Shown: one piece after another, positions 45,164-48,044 of the stretch | How positions within the stretch are numbered: position 1 is the first letter of the stretch | Layout: every line of letters begins with the position of its first letter | DNA from: Brevibacillus laterosporus | GTDB lineage: Bacteria; Bacillota; Bacilli; Brevibacillales; Brevibacillaceae | Direction: 5' to 3' | NCBI GenBank assembly: GCA_007833815.1 | Contig: CP033464.1 | Span: forward strand, 492,501-556,500 | DNA length: 64,000 nt | The notes under the pieces: generated by a model | The model's input: only the letters and a program-made list of their open reading frames with translations | Databases searched by the model: none | Told to the model about the DNA's origin: nothing | Position numbers and translations under genes: made by a program

Positions 45164-45193
45164 CCAAAAACCCCCTAAGTTGCCCTAGGGGGT
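45164..45193 (-). terminator. Terminator after the cold-shock gene
   Basis: Minus-strand stem CCCCCTA / TTAGGGGG with a short loop followed by TTTTTGG, 18 bases after the stop. Confidence 0.85.
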
Positions 45194-45210
45194 ATTGATT
45201 ATAGAATCAA

Positions 45211-45408
45211 TTAGATTTTAGATACGTTAGCCGCTTGAGGACCACGATCTCCTTCAACGATGTCAAACTCTACAGTTTGACCTTCATCCAAGCTTTTGAA
45301 ACCATCAGTTTGGATAGCGGAGAAATGTACGAATACATCGTCGCCTCCGTCGCGCTCGATAAAACCAAAACCTTTTTCTGCATTAAACCATTTAACTTTT
45401 CCTTGCAT
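45211..45408 (-). CDS. cspB: Cold-shock protein, CspB-like RNA chaperone
   Basis: 65 residues, a single cold-shock domain with RNP1 (KGFGFIE) and RNP2 (VFVHFSAI). Binds single-stranded nucleic acids and melts mRNA structure. Own promoter and terminator; ATG after AAAGGAA. Which Csp paralogue it is cannot be said from this window. Confidence 0.93.
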
Positions 45409-45464
45409 GTATTAAACATTCCTTTCATAAGAAAACTGTGGACTATTTGTTAATCCATGATCTG

Positions 45465-45493
45465 ACTATACACCTTGCCTATGGTAAAGTCAA
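45465..45493 (-). promoter_or_regulatory. Promoter of the cold-shock gene
   Basis: Minus-strand TTGACT (45488-45493), 17-base spacer, TATAGT (45465-45470). Leaves a 5' leader of about 50 bases, shorter than many cold-shock leaders. Confidence 0.7.
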
Positions 45494-45514
45494 ATGCTGG
45501 ATTATCGACAAATT

Positions 45515-45760
45515 TCAACTTGGGCTATATTTTTTTTCTAAACTTCTAACAACGACCTTAGAAAGCAACGATGTTAGTAGCAAGTAAGCCATTACTACCG
45601 TAGTAAAAGCAGGAAAGCGCTCCCACTTATTTTTACCAATACTCACCCCTGCATAATCGAGCTCTGAAGTAGCAATAACCGCTACAGGAAAGGAATCTAG
45701 CATTAAAACAATGAACTCATTTCTATGCGGAGAGCGGCTTTCTGGTAACTTCTTGAGGCA
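45515..45760 (-). pseudogene. Relic of an amino-acid ABC transporter permease (C-terminal end)
   Basis: About 80 codons without an intact start read NEFIVLMLDS...SELDYAG and then a final membrane helix with a basic end (LLTSLLSKVVVRSLEKKY). This matches the C-terminus of polar amino-acid permeases of the HisM/GlnP type, where NEFIVLLKDSS...SVI and ELTYAG follow the EAA loop. The frame is closed upstream by TAA near 45767 and no ATPase or binding-protein gene is present. Two ATG codons exist, but the product could not fold as a permease. It is a decayed remnant. Confidence 0.65.
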
Positions 45761-46165
45761 AAATTACTAGTCTCATAATAAAGAGAATTGCTCCTCTCCA
45801 AAGAATGTGCTACTTCCATTTATCCCTTGTCGATTAATCGTATTCTAGCTCGAAAAATTTCTTCAATAAAATAAATAAAATTACGACACATTTTGGACAC
45901 ATATATTAATCTCCAAATAATCCCAGATAAATAGGCTCAGGCATACTAAAATAAATGCTCTTTCAGACTTTATTTTAGTTCTAAGAAGAGCCTCAAAATG
46001 GTACCTTTCCCATAATAACTTGACCTGCACCTATCTTAGCTCTATCCTCATGAATTTGTTCTTACCGTCATGCCTGTCCACAGCTAACTACACGAAACTA
46101 TGTCCGATCGTGACCGCTCATGTAGGAAATGTCTTTTTGTATAAATCCTTAGGTTTTTTGTTGTC
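45761..46165. other. Gene-free region upstream of the DnaA-box cluster
   Basis: About 400 AT-rich bases with stop codons in all frames. The only structure seen is a perfect 10-bp inverted repeat CTAAAATAAA / TTTATTTTAG (45946-45955, 45969-45978) and an isolated DnaA-like 9-mer CTGTCCACA at 46074-46082. Confidence 0.5.
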
Positions 46166-46259
46166 TGTGGATAACTTATACCCATAATTGCGCATTTCCA
46201 CAGAGTTGTCCACATTATACACAGGAAGTTGTGCACAAGCCCATCATTTTTGTGTATAA
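46166..46259. other. Cluster of DnaA-box-like sites
   Basis: Within 94 bases: TGTGGATAA at 46166-46174 (perfect TTATCCACA on the minus strand), ATTTCCACA 46194-46202 (two differences), TTGTCCACA 46206-46214 (one), TTATACACA 46215-46223 (one, directly abutting), TTGTGCACA 46229-46237 (two) and TGTGTATAA 46251-46259 (minus strand, one difference). Such density outside oriC recalls DnaA-titration or regulatory clusters. The sites lie in the gap between motB and the permease relic; they precede no gene in a promoter-like way. Confidence 0.65.
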
Positions 46260-46307
46260 CTCTAAATAAGCGCTTCCATCTTTTTCACATCATTTTGCTG
46301 TCTGACA

Positions 46308-46355
46308 GTACAAATAAAAGACCCCACAATATTGAGCAATTGAGGAGGTCCTTTT
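46308..46355 (-). terminator. Probable terminator downstream of motB
   Basis: Minus-strand arms AAAAGGACC and GGGGTCTTTT with inner pairing CAATTG/CAATATTG, ending in TTTTATTTG. It lies about 110 bases after the motB stop. Confidence 0.6.
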
Positions 46356-46465
46356 CAGAATGTGTGAAAGTATTACTATAGCTATGTCAGTAAAATTAAA
46401 ATGGGGTGATTGAAAAAATAGAGAAGGGACAGCTCCCCTCCCTACTCAAACAAGCTCTTCATCTG

Positions 46466-47224
46466 TTATTCTGTCTGTTCACTTAATACAGTAATTTCCA
46501 CACGGCGATTTTGAGCACGATTCTTTTCTGATGTATTCGCTACAAGAGGCTTTGTTTCTCCATAACCTGCGACAGTGAAGCGTGATGGGGATAATCCCCG
46601 TTCTTGTACAAACTCCTGCATAACAGCCTTTGCACGCGTCAGAGATAGATCCCAGTTTGCTACATACTGACTTCTGGTAATTGGGGTGTCATCTGTGTGT
46701 CCCTCGATTCGTACTTGATGAGGAAATTTCTGCAATACATCAGCCAGCTTGTCCACGATTTTTAAACCGTCTGGAGCTAACTCAGCTGATCCACTAGCAA
46801 ACAGCAAATTTTCCGGCAAACGTATCATCACCCCATCGCTCTCTTCTGCAAAAGGGATATGGAACTCTTGCAAGGCTTCCCCTACTTTTTCCTTCACCAC
46901 CTGCATATTACTATCCACATCTTGTTCAGGTTGCTGCCCAGCACCGATAGCTACTACATCTCGTTTTGCAGACAACTCACGAATTTCTGCTTCCAACGTT
47001 TTCTTTTTCATTTCTGCTACGGCTTGCTCGGCTTTTGCTATCTCAGCTTTTTCCGTGGTTTGAGTTGCCTTTTGCTGTAGCTCTTGTTGTTGTTGTTTGA
47101 CCTGAGCTGTGTACATAGCTGCAACGATTATGACGATAATAAACAACAAGGTAATTAAATCGCTATAGCTTAATAGCCAACTCTTCTCAAGCTCCTTTTC
47201 ATCATACAGACGATCATCCTGCAT
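46466..47224 (-). CDS. motB: Flagellar motor stator protein MotB
   Basis: 252 residues: a short cytoplasmic start, one membrane helix with the proton-path Asp in WLLSYSDLITLLF, a coiled linker rich in Gln/Lys/Glu, then an OmpA-type peptidoglycan-binding domain (RIEGHTDDTPITRSQYVANWDLSLTRAKAV). Starts at ATG 47224 inside the end of motA (11-base overlap); a TTG at 47242 opens the frame. The ion used (H+ or Na+) cannot be assigned. Confidence 0.9.
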   Translation of the reverse strand: MQDDRLYDEKELEKSWLLSYSDLITLLFIIVIIVAAMYTAQVKQQQQELQQKATQTTEKAEIAKAEQAVAEMKKKTLEAEIRELSAKRDVVAIGAGQQPEQDVDSNMQVVKEKVGEALQEFHIPFAEESDGVMIRLPENLLFASGSAELAPDGLKIVDKLADVLQKFPHQVRIEGHTDDTPITRSQYVANWDLSLTRAKAVMQEFVQERGLSPSRFTVAGYGETKPLVANTSEKNRAQNRRVEITVLSEQTE

Positions 47225-48044
47225 ACTCGCTCTGCCTTTCAATAATTCCTTTCATGCTACCTGGCACTTTTAAGAGCACTAGCTTTTGGTCGGCAGGTAA
47301 AAAGGAATTTAGTTTTTCAAACAATATTCGCGGAGTCTCCATACGTTGTAACCCTACGCATCCTTCTATATAAAGCCGCTTCTCGAACATTTCCTGGTCA
47401 TGGATATCCATCAATCGATAATAACAAGGCAATGCCAACAAATTAGCTAACAAGGCCCCGTACAAGGTAGCTACCACTGCAGTGCTCAGACTTTGTCCTG
47501 TCTGCGTAAAATCAGATAAGGTTTGTAATACCCCTGTCATACCCAATAATGTACCAACAAGCCCCATTCCAGGTGCTAGTAATGCAACCAGTCGAAACAT
47601 TCCGCCCATCTGCTGATAGCGATGCTGCTCACCCTTGCACTCATTCTCTAAAATCATGCGCAGTTCTTCTTCCGATACACCTTCAATTGCCAGCAAGGCT
47701 CCCCTCTGAACAAATGAATCTGGCTCGTCCATTAACTCTTTCTCCAAGGGCAGATAGCCTTTCTCTTTTAAAACAAGCGAGTATTGATAGAAACGCTTGA
47801 TCGTCTCTTCAATGTTATTTTCTCTACCATGAACCAATAGCCGAATTAAATGTTTGATTTTAATATGTTTGCGCTTAATGGCGTACGAGATAATAACAGA
47901 TAATCCCACTAATTCAATAGCCGCCGGATGAAGCAATTGACTTACACTTCCATGTAAATAAATAGTATGTATTAAAATCAACATAACAAGTAGAACAAGT
48001 AACAGCGAACGATTTCTTCCCGAAAAAAATGTTTTTACATTCAT
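47214..48044 (-). CDS. motA: Flagellar motor stator protein MotA
   Basis: 276 residues with four membrane helices; conserved segments FRLVALLAPGMGLVGTLLGMTGVLQTL and LSTAVVATLYGALLANLLALP match MotA helices 3-4, and the cytoplasmic loop is charged (RQ, EEELRMILENE). Forms the stator with MotB. ATG 48044 after GAGG. Two-gene unit separated from the other flagellar genes. Confidence 0.88.
   Translation of the reverse strand: MNVKTFFSGRNRSLLLVLLVMLILIHTIYLHGSVSQLLHPAAIELVGLSVIISYAIKRKHIKIKHLIRLLVHGRENNIEETIKRFYQYSLVLKEKGYLPLEKELMDEPDSFVQRGALLAIEGVSEEELRMILENECKGEQHRYQQMGGMFRLVALLAPGMGLVGTLLGMTGVLQTLSDFTQTGQSLSTAVVATLYGALLANLLALPCYYRLMDIHDQEMFEKRLYIEGCVGLQRMETPRILFEKLNSFLPADQKLVLLKVPGSMKGIIERQSEYAG

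Follow-up and report, generated by a model that had tools for sequence, protein, structure and literature searches.

The window, i.e., the whole 64-kb stretch of Brevibacillus laterosporus DNA that was analysed, contains a dense group of DnaA boxes outside oriC, and its excess over chance is confirmed here. Seven 9-mers resembling the DnaA box (at most two mismatches) lie within the 94 bp from position 46166 to 46259. We consider it likely that this element is an oriC-proximal DnaA-box cluster of the Bacillus subtilis kind, which would hold DnaA away from oriC; its binding of DnaA, its nucleotide preference and its titrating action are predictions from the sequence. Such a cluster probably contributes to setting how frequently the chromosome replicates. 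An earlier sequence-only reading had proposed a DnaA-box cluster away from oriC, and had named two results that would speak against it, namely comparable clusters at chance frequency across the genome and loss of the boxes in close relatives with conserved flanks. Neither was found, and the proposal is supported. The components of the cluster and of the surrounding gap, with positions in the window, are the following.

46166..46174, minus strand: perfect DnaA box TTATCCACA; TTACCCACA at the same place in three sister species
46176..46184, plus strand: weak box-like site TTATACCCA, two mismatches
46194..46202, plus strand: box 3 of the triplet, ATTTCCACA in the window (two mismatches); TTCTCCACA in most of the family
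46206..46214, plus strand: box 2 of the triplet, TTGTCCACA, one mismatch
46215..46223, plus strand: box 1 of the triplet, TTATACACA in the window (one mismatch), abutting box 2; TTATCCACA in most relatives
46229..46238, no strand assigned: palindrome TTGTGCACAA, which reads as a two-mismatch box on both strands
46251..46259, minus strand: DnaA box TTATACACA, one mismatch; TTATGCACA or TTATACACA in sister species
46466..47242, minus strand: motB, with OmpA and MotB_plug domains
46420..46442, minus strand: hairpin resembling a terminator, located between the end of motB and the cluster and recognised by consensus match only (2 against 0.7 expected)
45521..45870, minus strand: remains of the permease gene of an amino-acid ABC transporter; most relatives have this gene intact
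45211..45408, minus strand: cold-shock protein gene (csp), the next intact gene downstream, followed by hpf and secA

The density of the boxes was compared with 200 first-order Markov sequences of 64 kb each. The best 94-bp stretch of the window holds four boxes at one mismatch or fewer and seven at two or fewer; the simulated maxima per 94 bp were three (reached in 1 of 200 sequences) and five (2 of 200), respectively. The second line of evidence comes from the close pairs of the whole genome, defined as two TTRTNCACA boxes separated by at most 28 nt. The 5.76 Mb contain 16 of them (7 direct, 6 head-to-head, 3 tail-to-tail; reversed-pattern controls 1, 0 and 0), and the cluster between motB and csp accounts for six (3 direct, 3 head-to-head, 0 tail-to-tail), the direct and head-to-head counts not being independent since the palindrome TTGTGCACAA enters both classes. 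No other site in the genome has as many, so that clusters of this density do not recur at chance frequency, and together with the simulation these counts rule out a chance origin. The earlier count of six boxes was right for the perfect one and the three with a single difference; its two sites with two differences were a slight undercount, as seven sites fall within two mismatches. The abutting head-to-tail pair it placed at 46206-46223 is exact.

The gap that carries the cluster, said earlier to be about 1 kb long, measures 1057 bp (45409-46465) and is intergenic, with motB on one side and csp on the other. The permease relic reported in it is real, as three tblastn fragments of the intact permease of a relative map to the 45521..45870 region. 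The csp gene is preceded by a leader resembling the cspA thermoregulator (45165-45573, minus strand; RF01766, 65.3 bits, E 8e-16, below the curated cut-off of 78), the 5′ part of which (45419-45508) is invariant across four sister species. A conserved RNA leader was also considered as an explanation of the boxes and rejected: this sub-cut-off match was the sole one, and it does not lie over them.

The same four species, i.e., that of the window and its sisters (G003, G004, L018), describe how the gap has changed after the loss of a transporter operon. Over 46169-46258, 83-85% of the columns are invariant, whereas the csp side (45989-46168) retains only 2-30%. On the motB side, the value is 43-52% at 46259-46378 and drops to 5-20% at 46349-46468. 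Other conserved islands occur in the csp leader (up to 100%) and at the end of the permease relic (45539-45658, 60-77%), and a second island of 77-78% is seen within the decayed operon at 45809-45898. Outside the csp leader, no part of the gap is thus conserved as well as the cluster. The boxes are kept better than their flanks, which is the opposite of the loss that would have spoken against the earlier reading. Judged by the sequences compared, the box cluster is old.

Within the family, the core of the element was searched as a triplet, TTNTCCACA-N3-TTRTCCACA-TTATCCACA (box, 3 nt, box, 0 nt, box), with up to three mismatches. This triplet of fixed spacing is present in 40 of 40 family genomes from seven genera, and the reversed control gave none. 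Its placement relative to hpf was covered in 37 of these genomes, in all of which it lies on the hpf contig, 1.1-5.9 kb 5′ of hpf and in one orientation. Twenty-nine motB loci were also inspected, and five (L040, L041, L042, L044, L045) were set aside as not of the Brevibacillus type; the scan after motB found no cluster in L040 and L042, and L045 has no box. Among the motB relatives, which point to the genus Brevibacillus, B. laterosporus is the nearest named one, its MotB being 90% identical. In 22 of the 24 remaining loci, the abutting box pair follows motB at a distance of 86-358 bp. The first box is degenerate in one locus (L037), and in another (L026) the cluster lies about 1.5 kb from motB, with a TnpB-like gene inserted between them. 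TnpB-like genes have been inserted on either side of the transporter substrate-binding protein (SBP) gene in L026 and L028, from two Brevibacillus species, and the box cluster is unbroken in both. Across 27 distinct family sequences, the mean frequency of the majority letter is 0.927 in the boxes, 0.711 between them and 0.525 in the flanks. The palindrome TTGTGCACAA is kept in most of the family, with column frequencies of 0.89-0.96, and the variable box positions are one in box 2 (majority letter 0.57) and two in box 3 (0.71 and 0.75); these column values come from 28 rows, in which one genome is entered twice (as G002 and L046) and L145 stands one box out of register.

The element extends beyond the family. 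The region 5′ of hpf was sampled in 40 stretches from 31 families other than that of the window, families f7 and f10 being left out of the comparison. Twelve stretches from nine families carry at least three boxes within 120 bp, with the same 9- and 12-bp steps and the same orientation; the figure is 7 of 35 without the five stretches (L140, L152, L154, L159, L172) that were picked knowing of a nearby hit, and some of the other stretches likewise come from genomes counted among the class-wide triplet matches. None of the 60 Markov sequences generated per stretch matched the box count of the 12 positive ones, in one of which (L155) the first box of the triplet is degenerate. The other 28 stretches show no such cluster (two boxes in L137 and L161), where a miss is no proof of absence given their limited 5′ reach, mostly about 6.5 kb (9 kb in L152, 5.8 in L159, 4.8 in L139, 2.7 in L167, 2.3 in L155 and about 0.5 in L162). 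Families f20 and f32 each lack the cluster in one of two genomes. On the sequences sampled, these 28 stretches indicate that many Bacilli do without the cluster. With four further loci (L111-L114) and the family of the window, twelve families carry the element 5′ of hpf. Over the 16 sequences from other families, the mean majority frequency is 0.910 in the three boxes and 0.434 in the flanks.

At the level of the class, the triplet (two mismatches or fewer) was found in 151 of 399 genomes, a count that takes in the genomes of the family itself and oriC sites; the reversed control gave none among the matches listed. Twenty places were opened, with gene names read by eye from the translations. 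Fifteen lie in the neighbourhood of tsaD (gcp) and an ABC-F gene (ydiF), beside one or both of them; one (L109) lies beside oriC-type genes, and four (L111-L114) lie between flagellar genes and the hpf region. The places at tsaD/ABC-F belong to several families (L096-L108, L110, L115), mostly with one triplet per genome, and in many single-contig genomes of two genera they occur at similar coordinates, among the matches listed. Such recurrence in several families implies that the gcp cluster of B. subtilis may itself be old.

The position of the cluster on the chromosome is also shared. In the genome of the window, it lies 404 kb from dnaA, on a contig of 5.56 Mb. The dnaA gene was located in 20 further genomes, and in all 14 of those measured the cluster is oriC-proximal, at 0.18-0.70 Mb from dnaA. 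The distance is 359 kb in G004, 340 kb in G003, 357 kb in G008 and 477-590 kb in G006, G007, G013, G027 and G035; in G010 (361 kb) and G028 (696 kb), the cluster is found on the other side of dnaA and inverted. Genomes of other families gave 402, 276, 210 and 182 kb (G086, G324, G245, G308); the figures for G245, G308 and G003 hold if the contig is circular. Six more genomes (G011, G012, G015, G016, G029, G036) gave about 0.5-0.7 Mb, estimated from rounded sizes. The location of hpf-secA may be enough to account for this proximity to oriC.

The same genome carries several other box clusters. Boxes flank dnaA upstream (942428-942794) and downstream (944221-944295), and further clusters are located at the jag-mnmE junction (939602-939839), at a ywlC/Sua5-like gene (630213-630484) and downstream of tsaD (1474155-1474294), the names of these genes, dnaA excepted, being read by eye from translations. 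The last three match DnaA-bound places of B. subtilis, i.e., jag/trmE, ywlC and gcp/ydiF (PMC4447404). The full triplet at the searched spacing is absent from the oriC and gcp clusters of this genome, the gcp site matching only with three mismatches. The DnaA protein itself has normal N-terminal, ATPase and C-terminal helix-turn-helix domains and carries the GRDHTTVIH motif. Three other groups of boxes were noted in the genome. The first (G000:C4:475112-475144, L126) has TTGTGCACAA with two box-like sites, 12 bp apart, after it; it resembles the core of the cluster and sits just before a small open reading frame and a sigma-factor-like gene. The second (G000:C4:926359-926711, L124), near a transposase-like gene, is a loose set of box-like sites that lies about 16 kb away from dnaA. 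The third is a head-to-head pair of boxes with no spacer on a 60-kb contig (G000:C2:7158-7175); a further two perfect boxes lie 1.5 kb from it, and it perhaps marks a plasmid origin.

The clusters of B. subtilis outside oriC are those at gcp/ydiF, jag/trmE, ywlC, ywcI, yqeG/sda and yydA. The element described here resembles them in holding several boxes in an intergenic stretch, and the spacing of its triplet is that of the tsaD(gcp)/ABC-F clusters of other families. It differs in its site, between flagellar or motAB genes and hpf-secA, and in the kind of evidence, which here is sequence. The table in PMC4447404 that gives the 20 strongest DnaA regions of B. subtilis in vitro does not list the motB-hpf site, as far as that source is available, and in the sources at hand it does not coincide with any of the six B. 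subtilis clusters, which bears on the orthology of the site and not on the kind of element. The literature search found no earlier report of this cluster site among the papers listed, and none of the papers covered combines "Brevibacillus" and "DnaA box", although one (PMC7566177) mentions both DnaA and Brevibacillus; the original B. subtilis cluster papers are known through later ones.

If the element acts as the B. subtilis clusters do, several DnaA molecules would assemble side by side on it. With its same-facing triplet at fixed spacing, its TTGTGCACAA palindrome and its outlying boxes, the element would lend itself to cooperative binding, probably of the ATP form of DnaA. In PMC4447404, the gcp/ydiF and sda regions strongly prefer ATP-DnaA in vitro, and this preference is ascribed to the sequence, orientation and spacing of the boxes and to the flanking sequence. 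Because it lies about 0.2-0.7 Mb from dnaA, the cluster would be copied soon after initiation. The doubled cluster would then pull DnaA away from both newly made oriC copies and make the next round start later, as the deletion of six clusters in B. subtilis suggests: according to PMC5295017, removing all six clusters outside oriC leads to early initiation, and putting one back gives partial relief. By this analogy, three boxes close together, facing the same way and not far from oriC are in keeping with a site that captures ATP-DnaA and is duplicated shortly after initiation. The same review also states that no DnaA-box cluster of significant role has been identified in B. subtilis, and PMC13220808 describes a tenfold overproduction of DnaA in this species without over-initiation; both argue against a strong titration effect. 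Further points against the preferred reading are the sampled hpf-upstream stretches that lack the cluster, the variable letters at some box positions, the missing full triplet at the oriC and gcp clusters of this genome, and the proximity to oriC that hpf-secA alone may explain.

A different role would be that of an operator, in which DnaA bound at the cluster mainly regulates the neighbouring gene (the transporter operon or else csp or hpf) and couples its expression to the replication cycle. The regulation of sda by DnaA in B. subtilis is a precedent. The sequence-only reading saw no gene whose promoter the boxes would control. This holds for the window and calls for care where the transporter operon is intact: in most Brevibacillus, a gene pair for an SBP_bac_3 lipoprotein and a BPD_transp_1 permease begins about 65-110 bp downstream of the triplet (start codons by eye), which would also suit an operator. 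In a locus with the SBP gene only (L034), the distance is about 160 bp. Further points on this side are the triplet start at 157-226 bp from the hpf match in L112, L114, L140 and L172, the TnpB-like insertion in L026, which parts the cluster from motB and not from the transporter gene, and a weak promoter-like match overlapping the triplet (46212-46184, minus strand, 9/12) in a region that had 7 such matches against 3.9 (sd 2.0) expected.

A constant place relative to one regulated gene was not found, since the downstream neighbour changes by lineage. In the 16 loci of other families, hpf is always further along on the same strand, and the next gene downstream is SBP in six (L111, L113, L152, L154, L155, L159), csp in two (L147, L150) and hpf in four (L112, L114, L140, L172). 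In the remaining four (L143, L144, L145, L149), the cluster stands after the SBP gene and before the permease gene. The hpf, csp, SBP and permease genes of these loci were confirmed by tblastn with proteins of the window and of L019; many other gene identities in other families were read by eye from translations. Within a single lineage, the downstream gene can be constant and near the start codon. In the window, the start of the next intact gene is about 760 bp from the cluster, which has nonetheless stayed so well conserved. The operon has been lost in the window and its sisters G003, G004 and L018, where only permease pieces remain, and a separate loss, placed by the MotA-MotB tree, left a 491-bp gap in L020; the cluster or its triplet is kept in both cases. 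These two losses lower the operator reading, although DnaA could act on whichever gene is next. The cluster is not tied to one gene, and we regard regulation of the neighbour as its main role as unlikely, while deserving to be kept in view.

Another alternative is that the cluster changes the nucleotide state of DnaA, by hydrolysis or reloading, and does not only hold the protein. Two systems of Escherichia coli offer the comparison. Like datA, the element is a box cluster away from oriC; like DARS1 and DARS2, it is a box-bearing non-coding site at a conserved place (PMC4585315 and PMC5010248). The spacing and orientation fixed over many families suggest a defined protein complex, beyond the needs of loose titration. 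The triplet and palindrome would then form an organised site at which DnaA is reset or inactivated, the equivalent of datA/DARS in Gram-positive bacteria, inherited at the flagellar-hpf-secA junction by at least 12 families of Bacilli and missing from the list of strong B. subtilis sites, a proposal we hold to be rather improbable. The same triplet occurs at tsaD/ABC-F and beside oriC-type genes, where titration or initiation suffices as an explanation. Sites of the datA/DARS kind work with IHF (and Fis), and it is together with IHF that datA promotes the hydrolysis of ATP (PMC5295017). A site altering the nucleotide state of DnaA appears doubtful.

The boxes could also be sites for some other protein and only resemble DnaA boxes. 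The palindrome TTGTGCACAA is two letters off the standard box, and the boxes as a whole are predicted. Against this, substitutions at the box positions often yield other accepted boxes, and the same triplet is found near tsaD, where DnaA binds in B. subtilis (PMC4447404); we therefore consider another protein very unlikely. A second or relic replication origin is rejected as scarcely credible: the triplet is oriC-like, and one genus has it in pairs with about 1.97 kb between them, at the one opened locus beside oriC-type genes (L109), in the manner of the bipartite oriC of Bacilli, but the features of oriC were not found, as there is no run of at least four trio-like triplets (TAN or NAT) within 46001-46400, the GC skew is negative in 16 of 16 blocks of the window with no switch, dnaA-dnaN is absent from this place, and dnaA with its box-rich flanks lies 404 kb away.

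The DnaA-box cluster that would hold DnaA away from oriC bears on how initiation is kept in step in species like B. subtilis, where Hda, DiaA and Dam are missing (PMC13220808). The motB-hpf locus adds a site beside the gcp-, jag/mnmE- and ywlC-type clusters of the same genome. It is a small, defined piece of DNA for testing binding, nucleotide preference and initiation timing, and the families with and without the site provide a comparative handle. That this site has retained its spacing and orientation across many families and survived the decay of its neighbours argues that box clusters away from oriC are selected as such.
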